Assembly (NCBI GenBank): GCA_009746045.1
Contig: RPFO01000027.1
Location: 774,138-838,137, forward strand
Direction: 5' to 3'
Source: Mesostigma viride
Lineage: Eukaryota; Streptophyta; Mesostigmatophyceae; Mesostigmatales; Mesostigmataceae
DNA: 64,000 nucleotides
The notes under the pieces are model-generated. The model made no database searches and had not been told where the DNA came from. It worked only from the letters and a program-made list of their open reading frames with translations. The first letter of the stretch is position 1. Each line of letters begins with the position of its first letter. Made by a program: the position numbers and the translations under genes. Positions 3,639 to 49,907 of the stretch are shown piece by piece.

Positions 3639-3737
3639 CTCATCCATGGCCTCCACGTCAGCCCTCCTTGCGACGAGGCGGTTGACGTCATCCAGACGTC
3701 CTGCCCCGGATGCGTCATGGAGCGGGGTTCTTCCATT
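3639..3737 (-). CDS. Ankyrin-repeat exon A24 (99 nt)
   Basis: One 33-residue ankyrin repeat beginning NGRTPLHDAS and ending ADVEAMDE. It carries the TPLH turn of helix 1 and a variant second helix (DDVNRLVARR in place of LDVVKQLI). The acceptor is TGCGTTCAG. The donor GTCTGA is non-optimal. Both ends are phase 0. It is the last ankyrin exon seen on this strand, 308 nt downstream of A23. The normally conserved G-H-L before helix 2 is changed to G-R-L, so this is one of the older copies. Confidence 0.75.
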
Positions 3738-4045
3738 CTGAACGCAGCCACCAGGGATGTGGCCATGAAATTCCGACAACGCACACAAAGACATGTCAAT
3801 ATCCACAAGCACCAAGCAGGCTTGGGTAGCGAGTGATCATGACCCTACACCTGTGTACATCATGGTTGCTGATCAATGGCACGACTAGGTTCTTGACAGA
3901 CTGATCTTCAAGCGCGGTTTGAGGGAAAAAACATCAGATTCAATACCACCAGCTTTGGAGACAAGTAAGCAAAGCATCTGCATGTCTCGGGCCTCAGGGG
4001 CGATGAGTGGATACATATAAAACTCTGTCCCTTGGCCACACCCAC

Positions 4046-4177
4046 CGCGCTCTCTGTGGCTCGTGATGCAGTTTGCTGTTGCTGTGCCTTCAGCTTGGCC
4101 TCGGGCACCTTGCGCAAAAAGTGCACCACGTCCTCCTCCTTGGCTTCCGTGGCAACATCAAGAGGTGTTCTCCCCTC
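4046..4177 (-). CDS. Ankyrin-like exon A23 with Gln-rich tail (132 nt)
   Basis: Starts EGRTPLDVATEAKEEDVVHF, a recognisable first ankyrin helix followed by a divergent second one. It then continues into a charged, Gln-rich stretch (KLKAQQQQTASRATESA) that could form a coiled coil. The acceptor follows AACCACAG and the likely donor is GTGGGTG. At 132 nt and phase 0 it is longer than every other cassette. It looks like a degenerate or capping repeat. The low-coordinate boundary is less certain than for the 99-nt exons, because the frame stays open for a few more codons. Confidence 0.6.
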
Positions 4178-4459
4178 CTGTGGTTTATTCATATATACAT
4201 GACATATTTAAAGCATCAGGCGAATTGAAGACACAAACTCTATATCACGGCGTAAAACGAGAGGTGCGGAGAAAAGAAGCCAGCCTAGTCACAAAATTGA
4301 ACCGACCAATCAACCGAAGGATGAACCGGTTGACTAGCCAGATGATGAGTTTACCAACCAACAATCAAAGATGATCGATTGCAGCCATATGAACAACATG
4401 ACTTCTGAGATTTAGTAACTAAGTTAGGGCCATTTGTTGAGCTTCGCTCATTTTACATA

Positions 4460-5060
4460 TGACGCGTGGACGGGCTCAAAGGGGACCGACCTGCCGTAGG
4501 TAGCGGAAGACCAGTGCTTGTCACGAGGGTACTGCACCGGCCGGCCCTTTCTGTACAGACGCTGAGTGTGGTTCCGAAGTGCAGGCCTAAGTAGCTTCTA
4601 ATGTACATGACTAGACCTTGTACCCACGCCAGCCACCAGGCGTGGCGCAACTGTGATGGGCCAGTCAGTACACCTTGTACCTGCGCCAGCCGGCAGGCCT
4701 GCGTGGCGCAATGTGAATGATAGTCAGTACTTATAGTGGTGTAGGGGACGTAGGGAGGCCTCTTTTCAGCTCCCCCCCCCCCCACCCCCCCACCCCCCCA
4801 CCCCCCCCACCCCCCCCACCCACTCACCCAACCGCCCGCCCGCCCGCCCGCCCGCCCGCCCGCCCGCCCGCCCCCCCCCCCCCCCCCCCCCCCACCCACC
4901 CACCCACCCACCCCACCCACCCACACCCCACCCACCCACACTGCTAAGAGGGGCAACACCTTGTGTTTGAGTATGCTGGGCCCCCAGCATGGTGCTACAA
5001 TAACCAACTTGATAATGATGTGCGCTGAGTTTGAAGGTGTGGTATAGGCTGTACGTATAA
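4460..5060 (-). repeat. Dispersed repeat R2, inverted copy with expanded C/G tract
   Basis: GTAGGGGACGTAGGGAGGCC (near 4741), the following AGCTCC and the distal GGGCCCCCAGCATGGTG mirror, in reverse complement, the layout of 980-1110. The short GGGTGGGTGGG tract of R2 is here replaced by about 170 bp of low-complexity sequence. Confidence 0.6.
4768..4942. repeat. C-rich low-complexity tract
   Basis: Consecutive runs of (C)nA, then about 10 CCCG units, then a run of roughly 20 Cs, then CCCA and CCCACA units. The minus strand is a near-continuous G-tract array able to form G-quadruplexes. Proline-, glycine- and tryptophan-rich open frames over it are composition artefacts. Confidence 0.9.
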
Positions 5061-5549
5061 AGCCTAGCACACAAAAATGTAAAACAAATGTTTCTCTTGG
5101 TGGGAAGGAATTCCAATGGACCAAAAACAAGAAATATATTGAAGGGTTATTCAGTTTGTGGGTCATCTTATGTATTGTGACACCATGTACGCCTCACTCA
5201 GTATGCTGCAACTTGCAAGAGGGGAAGGATTTACGTCTGGACATTCATGACATCCAATCTAAATACCAATATTTGCAGGACCCCCTAGCTAGGGTTTGTG
5301 CTACTCCAGGTGGTACTGTTCCCAAGTGAATATGGGACCAACAAGAGCTCCCGCGGTATGACCATAGTGCAAAATTGTCATCAAAATATTACAACCATGT
5401 AGGCTAGCAACTGTGCTGAAAGGTGAAGCGCGGACTGCTACACACGCCAGTGTTGAACACTTACAGACGCCCAAACATTACGTAAACGAGGGCAAAACCA
5501 CGTCCACTTTGGCCACTGGCATACATAAAACAAACAGCCAAACACTGAC

Positions 5550-5648
5550 ATTGTCCTTGGCTGCCACGTCGGCGCCACTTGCGACAAGTTGCTTCACGAC
5601 ATCCAGATGGCCATTTCTTGATGCATAATGCAGCGGCGTCCACCCATC
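5550..5648 (-). CDS. Ankyrin-repeat exon A22 (99 nt)
   Basis: A single well-conserved ankyrin repeat, DGWTPLHYASRNGHLDVV then KQLVASGADVAAKDN. The acceptor is TGCGTTCAG, the donor is GTCAGTG, and both ends are phase 0. The conserved intronic motif GCTGCTGCCAGAAGCC lies at about 5828, 180 nt upstream of the acceptor. The intron upstream (to A21) is 6.8 kb because it holds the 507-bp MITE, the 3.2-kb mariner-like shell and repeat R1. Confidence 0.85.
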
Positions 5649-6741: not shown

Positions 6742-6743
6742 TA

Positions 6744-12461: not shown

Positions 12462-12560
12462 CTCGTTCTTGGCCGCAACATCGGCACGGCTGTTGATGAG
12501 TTGCTTCGTGACATGCAGGTGGCCATGTCTTGACGCGCGATGCAGCGGAGTATAACCATG
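12462..12560 (-). CDS. Ankyrin-repeat exon A21 (99 nt)
   Basis: Read in its own frame this is one ankyrin repeat: HGYTPLHRASRHGHLHVTKQ then LINSRADVAAKNE. The acceptor is CTGCATCCAG, the donor is GTCAGTC, and both ends are phase 0. Helix 2 has HVTKQ in place of DVVKQ. A diverged version of the conserved intron motif (GCTGCTGCCCGATCAAG) lies near 12772, about 210 nt upstream. Confidence 0.8.
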
Positions 12561-14851: not shown

Positions 14852-14950
14852 CGGGCCCTTGGCGTTCACGTCGGCGTCGCTTGCAATAAGTCGCTTCACA
14901 ACATCCAGGTGGCCCTCTCTTGATGCCCACAGCAGTGGGGTGTTCCCGTC
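14852..14950 (-). CDS. Ankyrin-repeat exon A20 (99 nt)
   Basis: One ankyrin repeat, DGNTPLLWASREGHLDVV then KRLIASDADVNAKGP, with helix-1 His replaced by Leu. The acceptor is GCGCACAG. The donor GTAAGGT is the best match to a GTAAG consensus in the array. Phase 0. GCTGCTGCCAGAAGC lies near 15146, about 196 nt upstream. Immediately upstream in the same intron is the 45-bp minisatellite. Confidence 0.85.
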
Positions 14951-19130: not shown

Positions 19131-19229
19131 ATTGGCCGCGGCCTTCACATTCGCGCCCTTTGCGATGAGTTGCTCCACGATTTCCAGATGGCCACGCCTT
19201 GACGCAAGGTGCAGCGGTGTATACCCATC
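19131..19229 (-). CDS. Ankyrin-repeat exon A19 (99 nt)
   Basis: One ankyrin repeat, [18 protein letters not shown] then [15 protein letters not shown]. The acceptor is TGCGTTCAG, the donor is GTGAGCT, and both ends are phase 0. The loop ends in a run of alanines instead of NAKD. The intron to A18 is short (597 nt), close to the array's basic period. Confidence 0.85.
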
Positions 19230-19826: not shown

Positions 19827-19925
19827 GTTGTCCATGGCCTTTGCGTCGGCGCCGCTAGCAAAAAGCTGCTTTACGATGTCCAGATGGCCCTTCCGCAAGG
19901 CAAGGTGCAGCAGGGTGTTTCCACC
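19827..19925 (-). CDS. Ankyrin-repeat exon A18 (99 nt)
   Basis: One ankyrin repeat, GGNTLLHLALRKGHLDIV then KQLFASGADAKAMDN. The acceptor is TGCGTGCAG, the donor is GTGAGTG, and both ends are phase 0. TPLH is changed to TLLH. The motif variant GCTGCTGCTAGAAGC lies near 20106, about 181 nt upstream. Confidence 0.85.
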
Positions 19926-22290: not shown

Positions 22291-22389
22291 CGGGTCCTTT
22301 GCGTTCACCTCGACGCCCTTTTCGACAAGTTGCTTCACGACATCCAGTTCGTCATGTCTTAACGCAAGGTGCAGCCGGGTGTCCTCACC
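22291..22389 (-). CDS. Ankyrin-repeat exon A17 (99 nt)
   Basis: A diverged ankyrin repeat, GEDTRLHLALRHDELDVV then KQLVEKGVEVNAKDP. The acceptor is TGAGTGCAG, the donor is GTGAGTG, and both ends are phase 0. TPLH is TRLH, the helix-linking GH is DE, and GAD is GVE. The fold may be weakened, yet length, phase and splice sites are intact. The motif is degenerate here (TCGCTGCCAGATTCAAG near 22575). Confidence 0.8.
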
Positions 22390-28659: not shown

Positions 28660-29367
28660 CTGCACGCAGCAGCCACACACACGAGCCCCGTGACGCATGA
28701 GCCGCACACATCTCCACAGAGCGTTCAGGCGTGCCAGCATACACCAGAGTAAGCCAAGCTTGTGCAGAGAACCTTGAGACGGCTGACCTATGCACGACAC
28801 GTGGTCGCTGATGGCGGCCACTGATAGCTTCAAAAAAAGTTCACCTCCCAGCTGCTGCCAGAAGCCGTGCCTACCATTGCTAGCGCCAAAACCAGAACCT
28901 TCAATGACGAAGGGCAGCATGCATATCAGCCAGCATAACAACTGAGCAAAGACACAGCAAGTATACTGGAAGGCATACTGGGAGTGTGGAGGCAGAGGGA
29001 TGGGAAGCGCATGCGATTTGGAGCAACAAACTGGCCACCGTGAAGGATTCGTTAATGTCAACTCCCAAGTTTTAACGGTCCTGAGGGTCGCCACGATTTT
29101 CACCCCGCAATCAAATGATCCTGCCTTCTTCTGAAGTCCGCAGCGTTCTCTGGACAATCTGAATATTACAAGAGGGAAGCTTGTAAGCAGCATTGGGGTG
29201 GGGGTGGGGGTGTTTAACCTGGGGGGGGGGTGTTTAACATGAGATCACAGGCACACCCAAGTTGGGCCAAAGCCTGCTGCCTATTTCTGCACACCACACA
29301 CGACCGCTGGGCTGCCATGGGCGAAAGCAAGTGCACTCTAGCCACCGGGACCAAGGAAAACGCTCAC

Positions 29368-29466
29368 CTCATCCTTGGCGTTCACGTCGGCGCCACTTTC
29401 GATAAGTTGCTTCACAACGTCCAGGTCGCTGTTCTCTGACGCAAGATGCAGCAGGGTCCACACATC
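29368..29466 (-). CDS. Ankyrin-repeat exon A14 (99 nt)
   Basis: DVWTLLHLASENSDLDVV then KQLIESGADVNAKDE. The acceptor is TGCGTCCAG, the donor is GTGAGCG, and both ends are phase 0. The inter-helix GH is SD. The next exon upstream is 705 nt away and the next downstream 807 nt, which is the array's basic period. Confidence 0.87.
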
Positions 29467-29889
29467 CTGGACGCAGCAGCCACACACACGAGCCCCGTGA
29501 CGCATGAACCGCACACAGTCACAAAGCGCCCGTGGTTGCCAGCATGGGTAAAACACAAGCATGCGTGGGCAGCTAGCGACTGATGAGCCCACTCCCATAG
29601 ATGTCACGAATGATGAATGCGACGGATAGGCTGCCGACCATGAAAAACTCCTGGCTGCTGCCAGAAGCCATGCCTTCCATCGCTTGCTCCTAATGAAGAA
29701 TCACCACCCACAAACAACACAAGGGTGTCCACATAACCAACAGCGCGAAAGTACAGGAGTATGCAGGGATTAGAGCAGCAGGGATGCAGCGTGTGCACGT
29801 GTGTGAGCAAAAGCTTGGCAATGGTGAGACCATTAAGCAAAGTTCAAGACAGCTCAGGCCTGCAGGAAGCGACCTGCAGGGAGATGGTT

Positions 29890-30045
29890 AGCTATGCTTA
29901 TTTTATCTATGACTAACCTGCTGAGCTGAGAATGCGACGCCGCATAGCACAAAAAGAAAAAAAAGTTTTAGGGAAAAATTTTGCTGGCACCTGGACCCAA
30001 GCCACCCAGGTAGTGGTTGGCTGGGCAAGGTGGTTGCCCATACTG
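29890..30045 (+). repeat. Repeat R6, short copy
   Basis: TTAGCTATGCTTATTTTATC, CTGAGAATGCGACGCCGCAT and ACCCAAGCCACCCAGGTAGT recur at 37912-38060 and 48588-48740. This copy stops at about 30045, where the 1.25-kb duplicated block begins. Confidence 0.75.
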
Positions 30046-31292
30046 GCCACAGGAACCAAGGCAGGCGCTCACCTTGTTCTTGGCGTCCGCGAAGGCGCCA
30101 CTTGCGATGAGGTGATTCACGACATCCAGGTGGCCAAAGCATAACGCAAAATGCAGCGGGGTGATACCACCCTGCACGCAGCAGCCATACACACAAGCCC
30201 CGTGACGCATGAGCCGCACACATCCAACCGAGCATGCAGGCGTGCCAGCATACACAAGAGTCAGCCAAGCGTGTGCAGAGAATGATCAGCCCGCGCTGAC
30301 CTATGCCCCACATGCGGTCGCTGATGGATGCCACAGGGAGAGCTAGGTTGCTGCCAAAAGCCTTGTTTCTTGCACTTACTCAGAACTAAGCCCAAAATGA
30401 CAGTAGAATGCGAGTACAGCAGGAAAGGTGGCCGAGAAACAGGCACACGTACAAGAGACAGTGTCGGCAGGGGATGGGACACGTGTGCACGTGAGAGCAA
30501 CCGCCCTGGTAACCATGAGAGGCCTTTCGGATAAGGTTAAACGCAGTAAACAAGCTTGTGCCTGCAGGAAGCAAGTGGCAGCTGGGTGTGTGGCACAGGA
30601 AAGGACTGCAGCACACTGCTAACCATCATCTGCAAACGGGTGCTCACATCTGATATGAAAAAAAGGCCATTTCGGCATATGAAGGGGTGAAAGGCACAGC
30701 ACCCAGATCGCCATGACGCATGAACTGCACACAGGCACAGAGCACACGTGCCTTCCAGCATGGGTAAAACACACGCATGCTTGGGCAGCGAGTGAGTGAT
30801 GAGCCCACACCCATGCCTGCCATCACTTGCTCCTAATTGAGAATTACCACCCACAAACGACTCAAGGGCGTCAACTAGAAATCAAAGGAGCGAAAGTAGA
30901 GGATTATGCAGGGATTAGAGCAGCATGGGACATGCACACACGTGTGAGCAAAAGCCTGGCGATGGTTAGAGGATTAGGCAAAGTCAGAGACAGCTCAGGC
31001 CTGCAATTGCAACTGTTTGGGCAATATGTAGGATTAGATTAAGCCTGCAGCCCTCTATTCCCAGTACTGCAGCCAGGCGCTTCTCATGAGAAAGGTAGTT
31101 CAAGCAATGAAAGGTTGGAATGAAAAGTACCAAGGTCACTGTGATACCAGCGCAAGGATGCGGCGGATGGAGCCGACCATCAACAGCAACGCTTAGGTAA
31201 GGCAGAAGAAACCAAACGAGGAGAGCCCACAGGGCAGATGACATTCGGCATGAGCTTGAGGACACGTGGTGCACGAGTCAGGACTGTGCACC
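30045..31292 (+). repeat. Segmental duplication D1, copy 1
   Basis: About 1.25 kb nearly identical to 44266-45523, including exon A13 (partner A6) and its full upstream module. Only scattered single-base differences and a roughly 10-bp net indel are seen, so the event is recent. Confidence 0.9.
30073..30171 (-). CDS. Ankyrin-repeat exon A13 (99 nt)
   Basis: GGITPLHFALCFGHLDVV then NHLIASGAFADAKNK. The acceptor is TGCGTGCAG, the donor is GTGAGCG, and both ends are phase 0. It differs from its duplicate A6 at one residue (AL versus AS in helix 1). The motif variant GTTGCTGCCAAAAGCC is near 30350, 180 nt upstream. Confidence 0.87.
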
Positions 31293-31840
31293 TGCATGGC
31301 TGGGACGGTGTATCTCACGGTGTAACAGCCCGCTGCAGAGAGAACGATAAACGCACATGGCCGCCACTATGGGGCAGCTTTACCATCCCAGGTGGCACAA
31401 AAAGAATGGGGGTGGACAGGACTTCAGGGTTGCGGGAAGCATCTGGGGAAGATTGGGCCTGGCCAAATGACATCGACAGTTGATCTCTGACCTTTTGCCA
31501 TGAGCATTACACGAAATCGTTACGTTTAATGTAAGATTGCGACAATTATCAACCCTCCGAGCCAACCTTCAACTCTGTTTGTTTTTTTCTCAAATCGGCA
31601 GTCCGTTCTTTTGTTTTCTTCCTCAGGCAAGGAAGTACAAGTTATGTGCACCACTCCTTGCAAAAAGATGCTTGATCAGGCAAAAGGCAATAACCTTGAG
31701 AACACAGGGATGGTCAAGTTGGGGTACATTCTGAAGTCTAGTTCTGCGCACCACACACGGGCGCTCCACCGTTCAAAAGTCAAGCAGCCATGGGTGAAAG
31801 CACGTGCTCTCTGGCCACTGGGACCAAGGCAGACGCTCAC

Positions 31841-31939
31841 CTCATCCTTGGCGTTCACGTCGGCGCCGCCTTCGATGAGTTGCCTTACGACGGCCAGGTG
31901 GCCGTTAAGTGACGCGTGATGTAGCGCAGTCCATGCATC
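31841..31939 (-). CDS. Ankyrin-repeat exon A12 (99 nt)
   Basis: DAWTALHHASLNGHLAVV then RQLIEGGADVNAKDE. The acceptor is TGCGTCCAG, the donor is GTGAGCG, and both ends are phase 0. It is nearly identical to A5 (SLNGH versus SVNGH, GGAD versus GGTD). Helix 2 has LAVVRQ, shared only by these two. Confidence 0.88.
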
Positions 31940-32497
31940 CTGGACGCAGCAGCCACACACACGAGCCCCGTGACGCATGAGCCGCACACAGCCCCACAGA
32001 GCGTTCAGGCGTGCCAGCATACACCAGAGTCAGCCAAGCTTGTGCAGAGACCGTTGAGCCCACTGGCCTATGCACGACATGTGGTCGCTGATGGATGCCG
32101 CTGATACCTTCAAAAAAAAGTTCATTTCCCAGCTGCTGCCAGAAGCCGTGCCTACCATTCCTAGCTCCAATATCAGAGCCTCCAACAACGACAGGTAGCA
32201 TTCGCGCCAAGCAGAATAGCTGAGCAGAGAAACAGCAAGTATACTGGAAGGGGTACTGCGTTATGGAGGCAGGGGAATGGGAAGCGCATGCGATTTGGAG
32301 CAACAAACTGGCGATCGTGAAGGATTCGTTAAGGTCAAGTACCAATGGTCATGCTCAGACTTTTTCACACGATTTTCACCCCGCAATCAAATGATCCTGC
32401 CTTCTTCTGAAGTCCGCAGGGTTCCTCTGGACAATCGGCATTGTACAAGAGGGCAGCTTGTAAGCAGAATGGGGAAGGGGGTGGGGAAGTTGTTTAA

Positions 32498-34057
32498 GGT
32501 GAGGGTCCTATGCCAGACCCCCTATCATGGAATAACATGCAGGGCTGACCTGGGGGTACCCAAAAGATGATTTTAGGATGTAAATGGAAAGTGTGGGGAT
32601 TCATCCCACCACTTGTTGAGGGTGGTACACACTGTTTACACACCGCTATTGAGCAAAAGACGCCATAGACGTTATATAGTGCACATACTGCCTAGGACAA
32701 TACCGGCATCATTTCGCCTCCAAAAGTCAATTCCATGTATATGCCTAATTTTACACATTTCCTACCGCATTGGCAACCCAAAATAGTCAGCATTCATGAA
32801 GTTACTAATCCCCCCCCCCAAACGCCCTTTTTTTGCTAGAAAAAAAATCAAATCAACGCCACATGGATAAGGGCTAGGAGTCAAAATCAAATACTAGACC
32901 TAGGCAAACATCATCCCACAAAGTTTGAGCTGATTCTGACTCCAAATGTAGGAGGAGTAGCATTTGGCAGTTGGCCACCTGTGCAGACGCTAAGGAAGGC
33001 AATAGTGAGTATTAAGGCACACTAACACTCCCTATGCCATCCAAAAGGCTCCTGACCATGCCCCATCCGAGCACAACGTACAAGGAGGTGGCTGGGCACC
33101 TCATGTGCCCTTCTTGCCTTACCTCGGTATGGGAAACCTTATGCGTGTGTGCACAACAATAATGCAGGTAGCTCTACATGATTACAATTAAGTGTAGCCA
33201 AAACCTCAAAAGCATATCCCAGGTTTATGGTGTGAGCACCATACCAAAAACAAGCGGTTCAATGCAAATACACCCTAGAAAGCCATATCCACTGACTGCC
33301 CACGCGAGGGGAACAACAGACCAGAGAAAGCATACTTATCATAAAGGCTGTGTGCCAGGGGTTCTTACCATGGTTACTTTGCCTTGCTAGCTTATGGTAG
33401 GGCTCTCCCATAATTCAGTGCCAGAGAGGCCAGCAAAACAATGATAATCCCTACCTACATGCAGGTCCACCCATGCAGTATGCCCCACAGAACACCCACT
33501 GTCGCCTCTCATTCCAGCGGAACTGTTTGCTAAGAAACAACATCAAGCATGTGAGCCGCTAAGCAGTGCAGCCGCTGCTGAGAAAGGCTGCGTCAATATT
33601 AACATAAAACCGAGTGCTTTTACCAAACTCCTTCCAAAAAACCACTCAACAAATCCCTGACAACTTGCCGACATGCTACGGCTACTGGTTTGATACGCCC
33701 CAGCCATGCAAGGGAGATAAATCACTGAAAGCTGCCAATCGCCGCCGCTAGCGTAAATTCTAATCTATTCCCGCGATGGAAATTTCGTATTGGACCCCCG
33801 TGGAGATGGTCATCAATAAAATTATTGACATTGCAAAACGCACAAACTCCGCTAAGTTATAACATCATAAACTCGTCGTCTTTAAGATTCGCTCAATTTT
33901 TTTGCATTCCACAAGCTATCTATGTCTAGTTTGCCCAAAAGCACGTCGCCATGGCCACTTCCGCTAGGGATGCGCGCACCGTGCACCACTTTTTCACGGT
34001 ACGGAGGGTACCGCTAATTTTTTCGGCGACAAAAAAATTTGCGCCGGGACCGTCACC
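32498..34057. mobile_element. About 1.56-kb terminal-inverted element, R4 copy 1
   Basis: The left end GGTGAGGGTCC follows a TAA, and the right end reads GGACCGTCACC. The insertion explains why the A11-A12 intron is 2.2 kb instead of about 0.7 kb. The right part (33935-34050: GCACGTCGCCATGGCCACTT, TACCGCTAATTTTTTCGG) matches 63900-64000. Left-side text (TTTTTTGCTAG then AAAAAATCAAATCAA) matches about 62105-62130. No protein was recognised. The right boundary is uncertain by a few bases because host sequence also reads CACCC there. Confidence 0.6.
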
Positions 34058-34175
34058 CAAGTTGGGCCAAAGCCTGCGCACTGTCTGTTTCTGCGCACCA
34101 CCCACAGGCACTACGCACCCTGTTTAAAAGGCACGCAGCCATGGGCAAAAGCACGTGCACTTTGGCCACGCTCAC

Positions 34176-34274
34176 CTCATCCTTGGCGTTCACGTCGGCG
34201 CCGCCTTCGATGAGTTGCTTCACAATGTCCAGGTGGCCGTTATGTGACGCGTGATGTAGCGCAGTCCACGCATC
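34176..34274 (-). CDS. Ankyrin-repeat exon A11 (99 nt)
   Basis: DAWTALHHASHNGHLDIV then KQLIEGGADVNAKDE. The acceptor is TGCATCCAG, the donor is GTGAGCG, and both ends are phase 0. The intron immediately downstream holds the 1.56-kb element. Confidence 0.88.
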
Positions 34275-34975
34275 CTGGATGCAGCAGCCGCACATGAGTA
34301 CCATGACGCATGAGCCGCACACATCCCACCGAGCATGCAGGCGTGCCAGCATACACCAGAGTAAGCCAAGAGTGTGCAGAGAACGTTGAGCCCACTGGCC
34401 TATGCATGACACGTGGTCGCTGATGGATGCCACTGATAGCTTCAAAAAAAAGTTCACCTCCCAGCTGCTGCCAGAAGCCGTGCTTTAAGCATAAATAATT
34501 AACCCCACTCCAAGCTCCCAAAACAGAACCTTCAGTGACAAAGGGCAGCATGCATATCAGCCAGTTTAACTGAGCAGAGACACAGCAAGTATACTGGAAG
34601 GCATACTGGGATTGTAGAGGCAGAGGGTGGGAAGCGCATGCCCATGTGGGGAACAAACTGGCCAGCTAGAAGGATTCGTTAAGGCTAATTACCAATGGTC
34701 ATGCTCAGACTTTTTCACCCCGCAATCAAATGCATTCTTCTGAAGTCCGCGGGGTTCCTCTGGACAAGGGAAAATAAAGTACAAGAGGGAAGCTTGCAAG
34801 CAGAAAGGGCGGGGGCGGGGAGGTTTTTAATCCTCAGATCACAGGGACACCCAAGTTGGGCCAAAGCCTGCTGCCTATTTCTGCGAACCACACACATGCT
34901 GCGCTGTTTCAAAGTCACGCAGCCATGGGCAAAAGAACGTGCTCTCTGGCTACCGGGATCAAGGCAGGCGCTCAC

Positions 34976-35074
34976 CTTGTTCTTGGCGTCCACGTCGGCG
35001 CCGCTTGCGATGAGTTGCTTCACGACATCCAGGTGGCCATAGCTTGACGCCACATACAGCGGGGTCAACGGACG
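34976..35074 (-). CDS. Ankyrin-repeat exon A10 (99 nt)
   Basis: RPLTPLYVASSYGHLDVV then KQLIASGADVDAKNK. The acceptor is TGCGTCCAG, the donor is GTGAGCG, and both ends are phase 0. TPLH is TPLY. It ends NK like A6 and A13, not DE like its immediate neighbours, so surface-loop sequence is exchanged along the array. Confidence 0.87.
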
Positions 35075-35792
35075 CTGGACGCAGCAGCCACACACACGAG
35101 CCCCGTGACGCATGAGCCACACACATCCCACCGAGCATGCAGGCGTGCCAGCATACACAAGAGTCAGCCAAGAGTGTGCAGAGAACGTTGAGCCCACTGG
35201 CCTATGCATGACGCGTGGTCGCTGATGGATGCCACTGATAGCTTCTGAAAGAATTCACCTTCCAGCTGGGGCCAGAAGCCGTGCTTTAAGCATAAATAAC
35301 TAACCCCACTCCAAGCTCCCAAAACAGAACCTTCAATGACAAAGGGCAGCAAGCAGATCAGCAAGCATAACTGAGCGAAGACACAGCGTATACTGGAAGG
35401 GGTACTGCGTTTATGGAGGCAGGGGAATGGGAAGCGCATGCGATTTGGAGCAACAAACTGGCCAGCTAGAAGGATTCGTTAAGGCTAATTACCAATGGTC
35501 ATGCTCAGACTTTTTCACCCAATTTCCATGCCGCAATCAAGTGATCCTGCATTCTTCTGAAGTCCGCGGGGTTCCTCTGGACAAGGGAAAATAAAGTACA
35601 AGAGGGAAGCTTGCAAGCAGAAAGGGCGGGGGCGGGGAGGTTTTTTATCCTCAGATCACAGGGACACCCAAGTTGGGCCAAAGCCTGCTGCCTATTTCTG
35701 CGCACCACACACACGCTGCGCTGTCTAAACGTCATGCAGCCATGGGCAAAAGAACGTGCACTCTGGCCATCAGGACCAAGGCAGACGCTCAC

Positions 35793-35891
35793 CTCATCCT
35801 TGGCGTTCACGACGGCACCACTTTCGATAAGTTGCTTCACAACATCCATGTGGTCCTTCTCTGACGCCTGATCCAGCGGGGTGAGACCACC
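35793..35891 (-). CDS. Ankyrin-repeat exon A9 (99 nt)
   Basis: GGLTPLDQASEKDHMDVV then KQLIESGAVVNAKDE. The acceptor is TGCGTGCAG, the donor is GTGAGCG, and both ends are phase 0. Differences from the consensus (TPLD, KDHM, GAV) lie at the variable helix-1 face and turn. Confidence 0.87.
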
Positions 35892-36588
35892 CTGCACGCA
35901 GCAGCCGCACATGAGTACCGTGACGCATGAGCCGCACACAGCCCCACAGAGCGTTCAGGCGTGCCAGCATACACCAGAGTAAGCCAAAAGTGTGCAGAGA
36001 ACCTTGAGCCGGCTGACCTATGCTCAACACGTGGTCCCTGATGGATGCCGCTGATACCTTCAAAAAAAGTTCATTTCCCAGCTGCTGTCAGAAGCCGGCC
36101 CTACAATGCCAAGCTCCAAAACCAGAACCTTCAGTGACAAGGGGCAGCATGCATATCAGCCGGCATAACTGAGCAGAGACACAGCGTATACTGGAAGGTA
36201 TACCGGGATCGTGGAGGCAGGGGAATGGGAAGCGCATGCGATTTGGAGCAACAAACTGGCCACCGTGAAGGATTCGTAAGGGTCAAGTACCAATGGTCAT
36301 GCTCTGAGTTGCCACGATTTTCACCCCGCATTCAAATGATCCTGCCTTTGTCTGAAGTCCGCGGGGTTCCTCTGGACAAGCGCAATTGTACAAGAGGGAA
36401 GCTTGTAAGCAGAAAGGGCGGGGGCGGGGAGGTTTTTTATCCTCAGATCACAGGGACACCCAAGTTGGGCCAAAGCCTGCTGTCTGTTTCTGCGCACCAC
36501 ACGCACGCTGCGCTGTTTAAAAGTCAAGCCGCCATGGGCAAAAGCACGTGCACTCTGGAGCCCTACCAGGACCAAGGCAGGCGTTCAC

Positions 36589-36687
36589 CTCATCCTTGGC
36601 GTTCACGTCCGCGCCGCCTTCGATGAGTTGCTTCACGACATCCAGGTGGCCGTCGTGTGACGCGTGATGCAGCGCAGTCCACGCACG
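36589..36687 (-). CDS. Ankyrin-repeat exon A8 (99 nt)
   Basis: RAWTALHHASHDGHLDVV then KQLIEGGADVNAKDE. It encodes the same repeat as A15, 8 kb away. The acceptor is TGCGTCCAG. The donor is GTGAACG, a single-base departure from the GTGAGCG of its neighbours. Phase 0. Confidence 0.87.
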
Positions 36688-37390
36688 CTGGACGCAGCAG
36701 CCACACACAGGAGCCCCGTGACGCATGAGCCGCACACAGCCCCACAGAGCGTTCAGGCGTGCCAGCATACACCAGAGTAAGCCAAGCTTGTGCAGAGAAC
36801 CTTGAGCCCACTGGCCTATGCACAACACGTGGGCGCTGATGGATGCCGCTGATAGCTTCAAAAAAAAGTTCATTTCCCAGCTGCTGTCAGAAGCCGGCCC
36901 TACAATGCCAAGCTCCAAAACCAGAACCTTCAGTGACAAAGGGCAACAAGCACATCAGCCAGTATAACTGAGCAGAGAAACAGCAGGTATACTGGAAGGG
37001 GTACTGGGTTTATGGAGGCAGGGGGATGGGAAGCGCATGCGATTTGGAGCAACAAACTGGCCACCGTGAAGGATTCGTTAACGTCAACTCCCAGGTTATG
37101 GTGGTCCTGGAGGTTGCCACGATTTTCACCCCGCAATCAAATGATTCTGCCTTCTTCTGAAGTCCGCAGCGTTCTCTGGACGAGCGGAAATGTACCAGAG
37201 GGCAGCTTGTAAGCAGAATAATGGGGGGGGAAGGGAGGTTGTTTAACCTGAGATCACAGGGGCACCCAAGTTGGGCCAAAGCCTGCTGCCTATTTCTGCG
37301 CACCACACACACGCTGCGCTGTCTAAACGTCATGCAGCCATGGGTAAAAGCACGTGCTCTCTGGCCACTGGGACCAAGGAAAACGCTCAC

Positions 37391-37489
37391 CTCATCCTTG
37401 GCGTTCACGTCCGCGCCACTTTCGATAAGTTGCTTCACAACGTCCAGATGGCCGTGTCCTGACGCCCCATGCAGCGCGGTCAACCCATC
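37391..37489 (-). CDS. Ankyrin-repeat exon A7 (99 nt)
   Basis: DGLTALHGASGHGHLDVV then KQLIESGADVNAKDE. The acceptor is TGCGTGCAG, the donor is GTGAGCG, and both ends are phase 0. It is closest to A3. The intron upstream to A6 is 6.8 kb because it contains the DIRS-like element and fold-back FB3. Confidence 0.88.
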
Positions 37490-37911
37490 CTGCACGCAGC
37501 AGCGACGCACACGAGCCCCGTGACGCATGAACCGCACACAGTCACAAAGCGCCCGTGGTTGCCAGCATGGGTAAAACACAAGCATGCGTGGGCAGCTAGC
37601 GACTGATGAGCCCACTCCCACAGATGTCACGAATGATGAATGCGACGGATAGGCTGCCGACCATAAAAAACTCCTGGCTGCTGCCAGAAGCCATGACTGC
37701 CATCGCTTGCTCCTAATGAAGAATCACCACCCACAAACAACACAAGGGTGTCCACATAACCAACAGCGCGAAAGTAGAGTACCGTATGCAAGGATTGGAG
37801 CAGCTGGGATGCAGCGTGCGCACCTGTGTGAGCAAAAGCCTGGCAATGGTGAGACCATTAAGCAAAGTTCAAGACAGCTCAGGCCTGCAGGAAGCGACCT
37901 GCAGGGAGATG

Positions 37912-38385
37912 GTTAGCTATGCTTATTTTATCTATGACTAACCTGCTGAGCTGAGAATGCGACGCCGCATAGCACAAAAGAAAAATAAGTTTTAGGGGAA
38001 AATTGTGCTGGCACCTGGACCCAAGCCACCCAGGTAGTAGTTGGCTGGGCAAGGTGGTTGCCCATAAAGGTGGGCTTCCATGATATGTAGGGAAGCAGGT
38101 TGTTTCTTTTGCCTGAGAACCCTCTTGTTGCCACAACACAAATAACAAAAGCTCACAAGGCAACACATTAAAGCAATGAAACCCACCATGACCACATCAG
38201 CAGCGGCCCCCGACCGCAATTTCATTATGAAGATAAAGAATGCAGCCCTAAGGAGGGATGCACACCAAAGGAGGCCACCATTGCGGTTCAGAAGATCCTT
38301 GGGGCGGAGGTCTGGCTAGAGCGAGTAAAACTGTTCAGCAAGTGACGTGCCGGGAAAGTCATGGCCGCATTGGAGGAGAGGGGTT
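37912..38385 (+). repeat. Repeat R6, long copy with ORF relic
   Basis: It shares TTTTATCTATGACTAACCTG and the MKPTMTT-type ORF start with 48588-49000. Here the reading frame shifts after a K-N-A-A, because TAAGGAGGG is preceded by an extra CCC, so the frame is broken relative to the 48.8-kb copy. It abuts the left end of FB3 and the DIRS-like element, and could be that element's 5' region. Confidence 0.6.
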
Positions 38386-39926: not shown

Positions 39927-40301
39927 TGATGCTTGCAGGTCCTTTCTCCGCCGGAACGGTGGTTCCGTATCGGCAATGGTAGGATCTGTAGAGGATGGGG
40001 GTCAATATGCTCAAGAAGCCCCTTACAAACCGTTAGTATGTAGCTGCACGCTTGGCTTTGCCTGGCCCGGGGGGAGGCAGCCAAGAGGACGTGCTGAACT
40101 TACTACCCCCCTCATGGGAAGCAATTTTCAATTATCAGAGTATAATGGGACGGATGCTGAGCCCAGCAGAGCGAATCTTGCAGAAGTCGTTGCGGATCTA
40201 GCGGGGGTGCATGCAGTGCATACAGGAGTTTGCGCGGGTTTGCTTGGTGTGCATCGAGCGGGGAATTTCGGGTGGATTTGTTTAGGAGTCGCCTGTGGTG
40301 A

Positions 40302-41102
40302 ATGGCGCTTTTGGAGTCGGAAAGCCAGATGGCCATGTCTGCGTCGTTTGAGGACAACCGTCGCGGCAACGTGCCACTCGTTGATCCTATGCCCGCGTTT
40401 TTACCCCACCTTGGCGTGATGTGCGATCTGCCCATGCGCGCTGGGGAGGATGTCCTAGGGGGCGTATCTGATCTGGATTCCTGCTACAACAGGCTCCGCC
40501 TGCCTACTTGGCTGCGGCGGTACTGTGCGTGGATGCTGGTGTGGTCGGATCTGGTCGGGCTGAGTGGGGCGCGGGGAAGGTTCGGCCGTGGATGCTGTGC
40601 TGGCCAATCGGGAACAAGCTGGCCGTCGGTGTGGCCCAGTGCATGCTCTACTTTGTACTGTACCGCTGCGGCCCCAAGCCGCCACTCAAGGCTAGTCGGG
40701 GCCTGAGCATCGACATGTCAGCGCTGATTTTGGTGGCGGATGCTAACGAGGCAGGGCAGCCAATCGGACTTCAGCTTAAGGAGGACCCTTATGCGCCGCT
40801 GGTACCTTCGCCCTGACAGTTTCGAATCTCTGCACGATCAGGGAGGTATGCATGCCGTAACGATCGATGATCTCCACTTCACCCATGGTACTTCGGTGGA
40901 TGGGGTGAATCAGCAGTTAGATCTTGTTCAGGCTGCCAAAGCCGCTGTGCATGGCTGCTGCAGAAAGCAAGCAAGGCGGTACACGCGTCAGCTGTACCGA
41001 CTGGGGTGCAGGTGGTGGGTGTCTTTCACCGATGGGATGGTGACGTGGTACTGCTTGCTGAGCGTGCGACGGCGGTTATTGCCACTACTGCTAGAACCTT
41101 GA
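40302..41102 (+). pseudogene. DIRS-like element, reverse transcriptase (frameshifted)
   Basis: RT landmarks occur in order but in changing frames. EDNRRGNVPLVDPMP (motif 1/2) and SDLDSCYNRLRLPTWLRRYC (motif A, DLxxCY) lie in 40302-40706. PIGNKLAVGVAQ (motif B region) lies in 40508-40816. TIDDLHFTHGTS (motif C, IDD for the YxDD box) lies in 40740-41102. At least two frameshifts separate them, so no intact RT is encoded. The combination with the downstream RNase H and tyrosine recombinase identifies a DIRS-order element rather than an LTR or LINE element. Confidence 0.8.
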
Positions 41103-41858
41103 CTCGTGGGTTCACCTACTACCGCGAAATGAGTTCTGTGCTGGCAAAGTGGATGTGGATGCATCTGGTCTGCCGTCCCATGCTGTCGGTGTGGTCTGAG
41201 ACGTATCGGCTGCTAGCATATGTGAACGTCTCCATGCCTGGGTGCCGCTGGCGTCTCCCTGCGGGGGCCCGCCAGGAGCTTCAGGCGGCGATCTACCTGG
41301 AACCCTTTTTAAAGGCTGTCAGGACCCGGCCCCTTTCTGACCGGGTAGTCGCTAGTGATGCTAGCAGCTCCGGCGGTGGGGTGGTGTACAGGGACCTTCC
41401 TGGGGCGGATTGCGCCGGGCTGGCCACCCAGCGCGAGGCACGGGGGTGGCGCATGACAGCCTTAATCTCTGGGGAGGACTGGGAGCTGGAGCGCATGGAA
41501 GAGGGGACTACAGCCTGCTAAGTAGTGGCCACTGGCATACGGCACTTTCCTATGGGTGGCGGGGCCAGCAGAACCACATCAACGTCAAGGAGGCGATTGC
41601 AGCGACCAAGGGGCCGAGTGGCCGTGCCGCACCAAGGCGTGTTGTGGTGAGCGAGTCGTCTGGCTCGTGGACTCTACTGCTGTGGTGGAGGGGTTTGTCA
41701 GAGGGCGTTCGTCTTCCTACCACCTCAACCACCTGGTTCGGCACTGCTGCGCCCTGTCACTGGCTGGTGACATGCACAGCTACTGGGTCTGGATGGCTAC
41801 TGCCCACGACCCTGCCGACCAGGCCAGTCGGCGCGGTGCCTGGGTTCCTGTCACTTGA
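41006..41858 (+). pseudogene. DIRS-like element, RNase H domain (broken)
   Basis: VVASDASSSGGGVVYRDL (41006-41521) is the first RNase H strand with its catalytic Asp. WLVDSTAVVEGFVRGRSSSY and TAHDPADQASRRGAW (41556-41858) correspond to the C-terminal half with the NPADxxSR-like box of DIRS and related RNase H domains. The two halves are in different frames with a stop at 41521. Confidence 0.75.
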
Positions 41859-41867
41859 CCTGGTGCG

Positions 41868-42979
41868 GTGACGTGCACCCCAGCCCTGGGCTTGAGGGGG
41901 CGCGTACGACGCCCTTGGAACTTTGCTATTTTGGAGGGCACTGTCAACCCCGTTTCCACCTTGCCAGCCTACTGGCACGCGGTGGCTGTCTACGTGGCGT
42001 GGGCGCCACCTGGCCCTGTGGACCTGGCTGATGCGGAGGCCATTTACTGTGAGTGGATTTCTGCTGTCTACCATGCCCGAGGTGGGCGGAGTCGTACCTT
42101 ATGCCAGCACGCCAAAGTTTGTCTGCACCTGTACTACCCCGACCTCGTTTGGTACTGGGTACTGGCGGACCGCATGCTCGCTGGGTGGCAGCAGCTTGTT
42201 CCGGCTGTCAGCCCTCCGCCTATGCTCTGGCACCTTCGCTATGTCACTGCATGGATGATTTTTTTACGTCGGCAAGTGCGTTTGCGTGCGTTGATTATTG
42301 TTGCTTTCAGCAGACGTATTTACCCATTAGCGAGGCGTTAGGGCTGCGGCTTTGGGATGTGGCTCATCCTGGCCACCGGCTTCTTGAGCCAGAGCCCACG
42401 GTCGGTGCCCTTGTGCTGTGCAACCCCAAAACTGCGCAGGGGGCGGCCCAGCACAGCGGGCCTCCTCGTCCGGACCCACTTTGTGGTTCCTGCGACGCTT
42501 GACAGCTGGTCAGCCCCTGGATGCACTTCTTTTTCGGGGCTTAAAAGCTGGTCAGTCCCCGGATGCACTTTCTTTTTCGGTCGCACAGCCAGGCTAGGCA
42601 GCGATGGGAGGCAGTGCAGGCCGGTACGGGCATCCTGGGGATGTTTTCCATTCACAGCCTCCCGCACAGGGGGGCCACGCATGACGCCATCGCTGGCGAG
42701 TCGCCGGAGGCCATCCAGCTGCGTGGCCGGGGTTCAGCCCTCTCGGTCACACGCTACATCGGCCTCCATTGTAGCCTCATGGAGCGGGTCAACGCGCCGG
42801 TCCTTTGGGCTCAGGCCCATAGTCAAGACCCAGCAGCCTTCCGGCGCCACTTCCGTCGTGTTTTGACGCATTCCAGGCTGTATCGCTCATGTTTTAGCTA
42901 TCAACTGACCTCACCCCTGTGGGGGGGGATCAGGGGGAAAAAGGTTGAACTTTGTGACCCGAGGGTGAACCTGGGTTGA
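41868..42979 (+). pseudogene. DIRS-like element, tyrosine recombinase (broken)
   Basis: The N-terminal helical part (AEAIYCEWISAVYHARGG) is in 41868-42341. LPISEALGLRLWDV, in the frame of 42053-42502, corresponds to the box normally reading LRxxEALxLRxxDV. HSLPHRGATHDAIAGESPEA and ALSVTRYIG, in the frame of 42563-42979, correspond to the HxLR...GAT...Y box. The nucleophile Tyr is present, but both catalytic arginine positions read Pro in this copy and the frame is broken, so it is inactive. Confidence 0.75.
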
Positions 42980-44265: not shown

Positions 44266-45523
44266 GGCCACAGGAACCAAGGCAGGCGCTCACCTTGTTC
44301 TTGGCGTCTGCGAAGGCGCCACTTGCGATGAGGTGATTCACGACATCCAGGTGGCCAAAGCATGACGCAAAATGCAGCGGGGTGATACCACCCTGCATGC
44401 AGCAGCCATACACACAAGCCCCGTGACGCATGAGCCGCACACATCCAACCGAGCATGCAGGCGTGCCAGCATACACAAGAGTCAGCCAAGCGTGTGCAGA
44501 GAATGATCAACCCGCGCTGACCTATGCCCCACATGCGGTCGCTGATGGATGCCACAGGGAGAGCTAGGTTGCTGCCAAAAGCCTTGTTTCTTGCACTTAC
44601 TCAGAACTAAGCCCAAAATGACAGTAGAATGCGAGTACAGCAGGAAAGGTGGCCGAGAAACAGGCACACGTACAAGAGACAGTGTCGGCAGGGGATGGGA
44701 CACGTGTGCACGTGAGAGCAACCGCCCTGGTAACCATGAGAGGCCTTTCGGATAAGGTTAAACGCAGTTAACAAGCTTGTGCCTGCAGGAAGCAAGTGGC
44801 AGCTGGGTGTGTGGCACAGGAAAGGACTGCAGCACACTGCTAACCATCATCTGAAAACGGGTGCTCACATCTGATATGAAAAAAAGGCCATTTCGGCATA
44901 TGAAGGGGTGAAAGGCACAGCACCCAGATCGCCATGACGCATGAACTGCACACAGGCACAGAGCACACGTGCCTTCCAGCATGGGTAAAACACACGCATG
45001 CTTGGGCAGCGAGTGAGTGATGAGCCCACACCCATGCCTGCCATCACTTGCTCCTAATTGAGAATTACCACCCACAAACGACTCAAGGGCGTCAACTAGA
45101 AATCAAAGGAGCGAAAGTAGAGGATTATGCAGGGATCAGAGCAGCAGGAATGGGACATGCGCACATGTGTGAACAAAAGCCTGGCGATGGTTAGAGGATT
45201 AGGCAAAGTCAGAGACAGCTCAGGCCTGCAGTTAGCAACTGAATGGGCAATACGTAGGATTAGATTAAGCCTGCAGCGCTCTGTTCCCAGTACTGCAGCC
45301 AGGCGCTTCTCATGAGAAAGGTATTTCAAGCAATGAAAGGTTGGAATGAAAAGTACCAAGGTCACTGTGATACCAGCGCAAGGATGTGGCGGATGGAGGC
45401 TGCCGACAATCAACAGCAACGGTTGGGTAAGGCAGAAGAAACCAAACAAGGAGAGCCACTGGGCAGATGACATTCTTCATGAGCTTGAGGACACGTGGTG
45501 CACGAGTCAGGACTGTGCACCTG
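44266..45523 (+). repeat. Segmental duplication D1, copy 2
   Basis: Near-identical to 30045-31292. It is bounded on both sides by telomere-like tracts (44131-44173 and 45523-45561) followed by the same AAATTCTGAAGTCTACTGCT. The partner copy lacks the tracts. Confidence 0.9.
44294..44392 (-). CDS. Ankyrin-repeat exon A6 (99 nt)
   Basis: GGITPLHFASCFGHLDVV then NHLIASGAFADAKNK. The acceptor is TGCATGCAG, the donor is GTGAGCG, and both ends are phase 0. It is the duplicate of A13 within the 1.25-kb block D1. Confidence 0.87.
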
Positions 45524-45700: not shown

Positions 45701-45799
45701 CTCATCCTTAGCGTTCACGTCGGTGCCGCCTTCGATAAGTTGCCTCACGACGGCCAGGTGGCCGTTAACTGACGCGTGATGCAGCGCAGTCCATGCATC
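45701..45799 (-). CDS. Ankyrin-repeat exon A5 (99 nt)
   Basis: DAWTALHHASVNGHLAVV then RQLIEGGTDVNAKDE. The acceptor is TGCGTCCAG, the donor is GTAAGCG, and both ends are phase 0. It is the near twin of A12. Confidence 0.87.
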
Positions 45800-46732: not shown

Positions 46733-46831
46733 CTCATCCTTGGCGTTCACGTCCGCGCCGCCTTCGATGAGTTGGTTCACAACGTCCAGGTGGCCGTTAT
46801 GTGACGCCATATGCAGCGGGGTCCACGCACG
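46733..46831 (-). CDS. Ankyrin-repeat exon A4 (99 nt)
   Basis: RAWTPLHMASHNGHLDVV then NQLIEGGADVNAKDE. The acceptor is TGCGTCCAG, the donor is GTGAGCG, and both ends are phase 0. The motif GCTGCTGCCAGAAGCC is near 47023. Confidence 0.88.
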
Positions 46832-48070: not shown

Positions 48071-48169
48071 CTCATCCTCGGCGTCCACGTCGGCGCCACT
48101 TTCGATAAGGTGCCTCACGACGTCCAGATGGCCGTGTCCTGACGCCCCATGCAGCGGGGTCAACCCATC
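48071..48169 (-). CDS. Ankyrin-repeat exon A3 (99 nt)
   Basis: DGLTPLHGASGHGHLDVV then RHLIESGADVDAEDE. The acceptor is TGCGTGCAG, the donor is GTGAGCG, and both ends are phase 0. It is the closest relative of A7. Confidence 0.88.
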
Positions 48170-48587
48170 CTGCACGCAGCAGCCACACACACGAGCCCCG
48201 TGACGCATGAACCGCACACAGTCACAAAGCGCCCGTGGTTGCCAGCATGGGTAAAACACAAGCATGCTTGGGCAGCTAGCGACTGATGAGCCCACTCCCA
48301 TAGATATCACGAATGATGTTCAAATGCAACGGATAGGCTGCCGACCATAAAAAACTCCTGGCTGCTGCCAGAAGCCATGACTGCCATCGCTTGCTCCTAA
48401 TGAAGAATCACCACCCACAAACGACACAAGGGTTTCTACATAACCAACAGCGCGAAAGTAGAGGAGTATGCAGGGATTAGAGCAGCAGGGATGCAGCATG
48501 CGCACGTGTGTGAGCGAAAGCCTGGAAATGGTGAGACCACTACGCAAAGTTCAAGACAGCTCAGGCCTGCAGATAGCGACTGAGATG

Positions 48588-49000
48588 GTTAGCTATGCTT
48601 ATTTTATCTATGACTAACCTGCTGAGCTGAGAATGCGACGCCGCATAGCACAAAAAGAAAAATAGGTTTTACTGGGAAAATTTGTGCTGGCACCTGGACC
48701 CAAGCCACCCAGGTAGTCGTTGGCTGGGCAAGGTGGTTGCCACTAAGGGTGGGCTTCCATGCTAGGGAAGCAGGTTGTTTCTTTTGCCTGATCGAGAACC
48801 CTCTCGTTGTCACAACACAAATAACAAAAGCACACGGCAACACAATGAAACCCACCATGACCACAACAGTAGCGGCCCCGGACCGCAACTTCATTACGAA
48901 GATACAGAATGCAGCTAAGGAGGGATGCACACCAAAGGAGGCCGCCATTGCGGTTCAGAAGATCCTTGGGGCGAGTATGGCCAGTTCCAGAGCGAGTATG
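48588..49000 (+). repeat. Repeat R6, copy with open ORF start
   Basis: Third copy of R6. From the ATG near 48845 it encodes MKPTMTTTVAAPDRNFITKI followed by QNAAKEGCTPKEAAIAVQKI, then LGASMASSRASMYVSR. A related but frame-broken version lies near 38176-38300. No family was recognised. It may be the 5' coding end of a mobile element. Confidence 0.5.
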
Positions 49001-49187
49001 TATGTGAGCAGAATTGGGGGGGGAGGGCTGTTTGTCCTCAGATCACAGGGACACCCAAGTTGGGCCAAAGCCTGCTTCCTATTTCTGCGCACCACACGTG
49101 GGCCCTGTGCTGTTCAATTAGAAGTCACGGCCGGCTATGGGCAAAAGCACGTGCACTCTGGCCACCGGGACCAAGGCAGATGCTCAC

Positions 49188-49286
49188 CTCGCAATTGGCG
49201 TTCACGTCGGCGCCGCATTCGATAAGGTGCTTCACAGCGTCCAGGTGGCCGTTGCCTGACGCAAGATGCAGCGGGGTCACCCCATC
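49188..49286 (-). CDS. Ankyrin-repeat exon A2 (99 nt)
   Basis: DGVTPLHLASGNGHLDAV then KHLIECGADVNANCE. The acceptor is TGCGTGCAG, the donor is GTGAGCA, and both ends are phase 0. The terminal AKDE is ANCE. The motif GCTGCTGCCAGAAGCC is near 49510, about 224 nt upstream. Confidence 0.87.
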
Positions 49287-49811
49287 CTGCACGCAGCAGC
49301 CACACGCACGAGTCCCGTGACGCATGAACCGCACACAGCCCCACAGAGCGCGCAGGCGTGCCGGGATCAGTAAAAAGACACAATTCTAAAGAATCCCTGC
49401 ACAAGCACATTGCGCTTGTGCAGGGATTGATAACCCACACCCATGTAAACCACGGTCCCACGATCAATGTGACGGCTAGGCTCTTGACTATATGCATCAA
49501 AACGTTCTAGCTGCTGCCAGAAGCCATACCTGCCATCGCTAGCACATGATTCAGAATTACCACCCAAAACTACATATATAGTAATGTGTGTACAACAGAA
49601 CTAATGTGCAAAAGAAATTAAAACGTAAAGTCATGCATAAGTCTAGGATTGCGCATGTAGGGGAGAAGTCCTGGCCATGTCTGCTGCCTACTTTCTGGGC
49701 ACCACACACATGCACTACGTGTATTGTTTACAAAATTACATTTCTATCAGCAAAAGCGAATTAAAACAGATCTAGTAACTAGGCCAGTGAGATGTCACGT
49801 ACAACTGGCAC

Positions 49812-49907
49812 CTTGTTGTCCTTGGCATTCGCATCTGCACCCCTTGTGATAAGGAGCTGAACGACGTCCAGACAGCCCTTCTCAGATGCTTCATGCAGAG
49901 TCATACC
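49812..49907 (-). CDS. Ankyrin-repeat exon A1 (96 nt)
   Basis: GMTLHEASEKGCLDVVQL then LITRGADANAKDNK. The Pro of TPLH is missing, giving 32 codons. The acceptor is GAGCGCTCAG-like (CGCTCAG), the donor GTGCCAG is weak, and both ends are phase 0. It is the most 5' clear ankyrin exon. Deletion of the TPLH proline is expected to disturb the helix-1 cap, so it may be an N-terminal capping or decaying repeat. Confidence 0.75.

Follow-up and report, generated by a model that had tools for sequence, protein, structure and literature searches.

The minus strand of a 64,000-nt stretch from the streptophyte green alga Mesostigma viride (assembly GCA_009746045.1, contig RPFO01000027.1, positions 774,138 to 838,137; hereafter the window, with positions counted from its first letter) carries an array of 24 ankyrin exons that extends over about 46 kb (3,639–49,907). 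We consider it fairly likely that these exons form one large and probably working ankyrin-solenoid gene, encoding a recognition protein whose binding surface has been under diversifying selection. This reading was built from the DNA itself, by comparing the exons with one another, with the introns that separate them and with a related protein.

Twenty-two of the exons measure exactly 99 nt and are preceded by AG and followed by GT, as an earlier note on this DNA had described. When both strands were scanned for ankyrin-like segments of 99 nt, 23 matches exceeded the set score, all on the minus strand; 22 had AG and GT, and the 23rd was the 96-nt exon at 49907–49812, picked up in a shifted register. 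The 132-nt relative listed in the same note lies at 4177–4046, on the minus strand; it is indeed related to ankyrin repeats, but as a divergent C-cap and not as a core repeat. The motifs said to bound each repeat, DGxTPLH at the start and AKDE or AKNK at the end, hold only loosely, since these ends are found in 12 of the 22 exons (AKDE in nine, AKNK in three) and residue 1 is Asp in 11 of 22. The frame-neutrality that had been claimed is borne out, as all 24 lengths are divisible by three and, when joined at AG/GT as drawn, all 24 exons would be in phase 0. The joined product has 802 residues, and its 33-residue repeats score well above the Pfam cutoffs, with 774.1 bits for PF12796 (cutoff 27.3; E = 5.5e-239) and 649.3 bits for PF00023 (cutoff 21.1).

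The array bears none of the marks of a pseudogene (random stops, indels or lost splice signals), and a stop codon or a lost AG/GT occurs in 0 of 24 exons. When the observed substitutions were placed at random on the consensus, stops were expected in 8.8 of 22 exons and none was seen (P(0) = 0.0001), while amino-acid changes numbered 207 against 269.8 expected; random stops, whose presence in orthologous copies had been put forward as a sign of a graveyard of duplicated exons, are thus absent from this copy. The 14 young exons (those above 28 kb; the eight below are termed old) contain no indels, versus 0.5–5.6 events per 100 bp in bins of flanking intron. A six-frame search with a profile of the 22 exons gave no further exon, all other matches scoring at most 7.9 bits, although the divergent C-cap exon itself obtained just 5.4 bits with this profile and other caps could therefore escape it. 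A DNA profile of the exon with 60-nt flanks retrieved 23 exon-bearing copies, all within the 24, plus four short flank fragments (E 0.003–0.005), and no decayed exon copy.

The organization of the array could be read with the help of P0126 (Mesvir1/17134, a label that we take to mean M. viride), which ranked fourth among 7,800 significant matches in an ankyrin search. On the minus strand, the N-cap exon (96 nt) is followed by 21 core exons, the C-cap exon (132 nt) and an N-cap-like exon, here called 3737 after its first position. In a one-against-one comparison, P0126 matched core exon 5648, the C-cap exon 4177 and exon 3737 in this same order (66/123 identical, E = 4e-36), and exons 49907 and 49286 matched it at 41 of 59 residues. 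From this order of core, C-cap and N-cap, exon 4177 is interpreted as a C-cap with a linker, and exon 3737 seems to open a further block, so that the gene probably continues beyond position 1 of the window. P0126 belongs to the same family, having an N-cap, core repeats in the 33-residue register, a C-cap and a second N-cap. It differs in its C-cap unit, which by our own cut comprises 57 residues versus 44 at the locus, and in having, by our own division, two core repeats before the C-cap. Core exon number thus clearly appears to change within the family, from two in P0126 to 21 here. The public P0126 model is 449 residues long, and its ends, outside the repeats, resemble window intron next to ankyrin exons: at the N-terminal end, 6 of 16 rows stop 10–33 nt short of an exon, and at the C-terminal end 4 of 16 begin 11 nt past one. 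These matches, which are weak (E 0.9 to 10) and involve window copies related to one another, suggest that the model reads into introns at both ends. Among solved structures, a five-exon piece was most similar to a fusion of a designed ankyrin repeat protein (DARPin), with ankyrin-1 as second.

Comparison of the window with itself indicates that the core has grown by duplication of exon-plus-intron units, both singly and in blocks. A tandem shift of about 0.8 kb aligns 34054–36739 with 34848–37541 (85%), and block copies relate 30043–31294 to 44264–45523 (97%) and 28419–30042 to 36445–38066 (89%). As every exon is a whole repeat in phase 0, the gain or loss of a unit keeps both the frame and the repeat register. 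The units have not simply diverged since they were copied, and the array reads as a recombination mosaic: the nearest neighbour of a unit often differs between its upstream intron, its exon and its downstream intron, and the exon tree and the upstream-intron tree reject each other. Segments within single units mostly reject each other's trees as well, an exception being near and far intron, which agree when compared one way (p = 0.18). Of the 15 windows in a sliding control, 14 rejected their flanks, among them all nine purely intronic ones, and the likelihood gap to the flanks was largest for the exon window (69.5 versus at most 62.3 for purely intronic windows; 1.24 versus 0.83 per variable column).

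The evidence for selection lies in the distribution of differences between copies. In the young ones, the pairwise difference is 0.08 over the final 10 nt of the intron and rises to 0.335 over the 11 nt that open the exon, and the last 50 nt of the intron are 92.4% alike versus 78.8% for the exon, probably because splice signals have been held. Five pairs were chosen in which both flanks are at least 85% alike, some of them sharing an exon. Exon nt 1–42 differ at 54 of 210 positions (25.7%) in these pairs, against 313 of 2791 (11.2%) in introns 60–350 nt away (Fisher p = 2e-8), while the figures are 24 of 285 for nt 43–99 and, for the adjoining 60 nt, 21 of 298 on the upstream side and 33 of 288 on the downstream side. 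Three disjoint pairs gave the same picture, with 35/126 for nt 1–42 versus 232/2345 for intron within 400 nt (p = 4e-8). Relative to intron distance, the nonsynonymous distance (dN) in the disjoint pairs is 3.25-fold in codons 1–14 and 0.36-fold in codons 15–33. In the pair 37489/29466 (core exons 6 and 13), 13 of the 14 exon differences fall in nt 1–42, with eight amino-acid changes there and none later, and the intron shows no difference between −131 and −19. Variation is highest in five codons, 8, 12, 11, 3 and 1, of which the last four belong to what we take to be the six repeat positions randomized in DARPin libraries; entropy at these six is 2.21 bits versus 1.18 overall (permutation p = 6e-4). 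The excess of replacements in codons 1–14 thus fits diversifying selection on a putative binding face, with the scaffold constrained.

Several observations weigh against selection as the whole explanation. In the disjoint pairs the synonymous distance (dS) also lies above the intron distance of 0.106, at 0.36 in codons 1–14 and 0.28 in codons 15–33, and third positions of six variable codons vary at 0.476 versus 0.206 elsewhere (p = 0.008), which implies that imported or older exon segments explain part of the excess. The classical dN/dS ratio is below 1, reaching 0.86 among the 14 young copies at six surface codons chosen after the variation had been seen. Windows of 42 nt in the introns were at least as divergent as the exon start in 0/699, 0/707, 175/693, 254/693 and 29/681 cases for the five pairs. 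Among 19 pairs whose upstream introns are similar, conservation is lower than in the intron for the exon as a whole in 11, for nt 1–42 in 16 and for nt 43–99 in eight. Finally, no signalling domain such as ROC-COR or NB-ARC exceeded its Pfam cutoff in the open reading frames (ORFs) scanned, which cover part of the window in a gene that may run on, and a receptor role is therefore something that we infer. We take both processes, selection and the import of older segments by recombination or conversion, to act.

Import could also be the main cause. If exons or pieces of them were swapped by gene conversion between units or with other ankyrin loci, the excess divergence would have been brought in and would not reflect selected point mutations. 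This is possible, though we lean against it, and the two accounts, like the others weighed here, are not mutually exclusive. Besides the mutual rejection of the exon and upstream-intron trees and the size of the exon window's likelihood gap, the largest of the 15, it would account for the behaviour of the intron ends that adjoin the exon, where the 60 nt before it and the 60 nt after it both accept the far-intron tree and reject those of the exon, for the rejection of intron trees by third positions alone, and for the 106-nt identical run shared by exons 36687 and 28659, which exceeds the exon by 3 and 4 nt. However, discordance is not peculiar to exons: the 14 windows that reject their flanks, and one intron segment that rejects both its neighbours, indicate that recombination is general, and exchange bounded by exons was for this reason demoted from an exclusive account to a rival. 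In addition, the rejection of the near-intron tree by exon nt 43–99 falls just short of significance (p = 0.061), inspection of the other young exons by eye revealed no donor for the odd exon starts, and, of 41 identity runs of at least 40 nt, five cross the donor side and only two the acceptor by more than 10 nt, a distribution that accords better with a hypervariable exon start than with exchange bounded by exons.

Diversity might instead arise in the transcript, as the earlier note proposed, each cell or messenger picking another subset of the 21 core exons, so that one gene would yield many solenoids. Any subset would be in frame, and similar LRR (leucine-rich repeat) exon arrays of Ectocarpus are reported to yield several splice variants (PMC11378527); nevertheless, whole-repeat phase 0 exons are expected equally from duplication alone, and no Dscam-type selector emerged from a limited test, in which pairing between 70-nt intron ends was no better than in shuffled sequences (mean z −0.40 over 20 introns) and the conserved acceptor block had just two antisense copies, both with six mismatches in 21. 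A splicing generator is in our opinion unlikely, and the evidence favours diversity gained over time through duplication, recombination and selection. Nor do we give much credence to several separate short tandem ankyrin genes. At 46 kb, the array is much longer than the mean M. viride gene of 5.9 kb (PMC6947507), and the P0126 model is short, but a single N-cap and a single C-cap exon appear to bracket 21 core exons of the same strand and phase. That the locus is a functionless heap of duplicated exons is highly improbable. Its wide span and its long introns, which harbour minisatellites and a decayed retroelement, would suit a graveyard, as would the lack of a gene model of this locus among the matches listed (the best 120 in each of two ankyrin searches); yet 0 of 24 exons is broken, no decayed copy or young-exon indel was found, and the 3' part of the repeat is constrained.

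According to the favoured explanation of a single working gene, the product would be a long ankyrin solenoid built in blocks, comprising an N-cap, 21 one-repeat core exons, a C-cap and the start of the next block. The core has lengthened by the copying of exon-intron units, in frame and in register, and recombination among units has turned the copies into mosaics. Changes gather in residues 1–14, at positions that contact the target in engineered ankyrins, faster than in neighbouring introns, the remainder of the repeat being conserved. Such a protein might be a receptor or adaptor for protein recognition, a role suggested by the pattern of variation and by the likeness to the LRR-ROCO arrays of brown algae, and selection could plausibly stem from a changing partner, such as a parasite, a symbiont or a non-self protein. 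A possible candidate for that partner is 'Ca. Megaira', a symbiont whose genome was assembled from an M. viride library (PMC10132079). Most exons would be spliced constitutively, with some skipping possible. A broader joint reading, which we hold to be rather doubtful, portrays exchangeable ankyrin cassettes in an early-diverging streptophyte, in which hypervariable, target-binding nt 1–42 would be refreshed by exon-level exchange, while introns and the structural half would have a separate history. Templating by spliced RNA would perhaps be involved, as the ends of one identical tract lie 4 nt or less from the two splice sites. The outcome would be a DARPin-style repertoire in the germline, possibly also based on splicing, independent of brown-algal LRR and tetratricopeptide repeat (TPR) arrays and of plant nucleotide-binding leucine-rich-repeat receptors.

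Table 1. Exons of the ankyrin array and associated features, in window coordinates.
Feature	Position	Strand	Basis
N-cap ankyrin exon, 96 nt, GMTLHEASEKG..., first repeat of block	49812..49907	-	scan and profile; likeness to P0126
Core ankyrin exon 1, 99 nt	49188..49286	-	scan, profile, translation
Core ankyrin exon 2, 99 nt	48071..48169	-	
Core ankyrin exon 3, 99 nt	46733..46831	-	
Core ankyrin exon 4, 99 nt	45701..45799	-	
Core ankyrin exon 5, 99 nt, 98% identity with exon 12 (30171)	44294..44392	-	
Decayed retroelement in the 6.8-kb intron that separates core exons 5 and 6	40190..42853	+	
Core ankyrin exon 6, 99 nt	37391..37489	-	
Core ankyrin exon 7, 99 nt, same sequence as exon 14 (28659)	36589..36687	-	
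Core ankyrin exon 8, 99 nt	35793..35891	-	
Core ankyrin exon 9, 99 nt	34976..35074	-	
Core ankyrin exon 10, 99 nt	34176..34274	-	
Core ankyrin exon 11, 99 nt	31841..31939	-	
Core ankyrin exon 12, 99 nt	30073..30171	-	
Core ankyrin exon 13, 99 nt, 13/14 differences from exon 6 in first 42 nt	29368..29466	-	
Core ankyrin exon 14, 99 nt	28561..28659	-	
Core ankyrin exon 15, 99 nt, older part of array	26232..26330	-	
Core ankyrin exon 16, 99 nt	22291..22389	-	
Core ankyrin exon 17, 99 nt	19827..19925	-	
Core ankyrin exon 18, 99 nt	19131..19229	-	
Core ankyrin exon 19, 99 nt	14852..14950	-	
Core ankyrin exon 20, 99 nt	12462..12560	-	
Core ankyrin exon 21, 99 nt	5550..5648	-	
C-cap ankyrin exon with linker, 132 nt, EGRTPLDVATEAKEEDVVHF...	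4046..4177	-	
99-nt ankyrin exon, N-cap-like, putative start of further block	3639..3737	-	inference
Densest stretch of young array: tandem and block-duplicated exon-intron units	28400..38070	-	self-comparison

The 23 introns have a mean length of 1,907 bp and a median of 1,239 bp, the published mean for M. viride being 1,142 bp (PMC6947507, which also describes PacBio isoform sequencing). The donor sequence is GTGAGC or GTGAGT in 16 of the 23, and every acceptor ends in CAG. The conserved block on the acceptor side of the 14 young exons (last 50–60 nt) has little pyrimidine tract and a GCGTCAC-like element about 30 nt from the AG. A fragment of acceptor flank with no exon behind it is present in two copies, 44960–44927 and 30739–30706, and is perhaps the relic of a lost exon that was duplicated with its block. 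Scans of other contigs with splice motifs gave 0 stretches in viruses and 12 in prokaryotes, all in bacteria-titled records and judged to be due to chance. Three pieces of the retroelement, by eye a decayed element of the reverse transcriptase/recombinase type, were searched jointly against 5.8 billion proteins; of the 8,000 candidates scored, two matched, and both carry the label Mesvir1. Realigned to the window, these proteins were 54–86% identical over their pieces. The matches point to M. viride or a close relative as the source, and a brown alga, suspected at first, was discarded on this ground. Other array introns hold a 45-nt minisatellite (15355–16566, 27 copies, 97% match) and, between core exons 16 and 17, an inverted repeat (20522–20859 / 21023–21360, 98.5% over 338 nt) that looks like a small mobile element. 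Dispersed repeats about 80% alike lie outside the exon units (3–545 / 7423–7917 and 849–1360 / 27258–27796), and a CA-rich 8-nt tandem repeat with 38 copies and a degenerate continuation occupies 59149–59589. An ORF of 163 codons on the minus strand (60790–61278) is transposase-like by eye, its only Pfam match being a sub-cutoff villin headpiece. Chosen ORFs and ORF strings outside the array gave nothing above the Pfam cutoff, and Rfam (at gathering threshold) and tRNA scans were empty.

The vertebrate ankyrins ANK1–3 resemble the locus in having about 24 repeats in their membrane-binding domains and many exons of 99 or 198 nt, but their repeats are conserved and stable in number, whereas many copies here are young and diversifying. 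Dscam-type clusters, which are mentioned in PMC11378527, likewise contain tandem homologous exons open to alternative choice, yet the pairing signal typical of them was missing in the limited intron-end test, and, since all exons can be joined in frame, Dscam-like mutual exclusion would not be needed. A closer parallel is offered by the LRR-ROCO genes of the brown algae Ectocarpus and Saccharina, for which PMC11378527 describes one repeat per exon with fixed length and phase, shuffled exons and variation on the binding face, and proposes an immune role; it also mentions NB-TPR genes, whose repeat exons are thought to be shuffled to vary recognition. The M. viride array shares part of this design, with one repeat per exon, constant length (22 of 24 exons of 99 nt), symmetrical phase (24 of 24 in phase 0) and copies gained and reassorted, as the tandem and block duplicates and the discordant trees indicate. 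It is nonetheless not a member of either family, as its repeats are ankyrins and its relatives Mesvir1 proteins: LRR-ROCO exons are 72 bp long, in phase 2 and joined to ROC-COR (PMC11378527), NB-TPR genes combine TPR repeats with a nucleotide-binding domain, and the locus lies in a streptophyte green alga, with no partner domain found in the part scanned. These published single-repeat exons make the earlier note's statement that coincidence of exon and repeat is uncommon on this scale too strong, while its view of a modular array that grows by exon duplication and offers a diverse solenoid surface agrees with the duplicates and with the two versus 21 core repeats. Among the papers listed for Mesostigma, for arrays of ankyrin exons and for exon shuffling in brown algae, none describes the locus or family, a coverage outside which most subscription papers fall, and the word "ankyrin" does not occur in the main text of PMC6947507.

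With its 24 clean exons in a single locus and introns that serve as a yardstick for each copy, the array provides a direct test of how repeat proteins grow, and much of its natural variation falls on residues that DARPin engineers randomize. Arrays of shuffled repeat exons have been proposed to act as a repertoire system in brown algae (PMC11378527). A like design made of another repeat, located in the green lineage and close to the base of the streptophytes, would represent a convergent route to diverse recognition surfaces.

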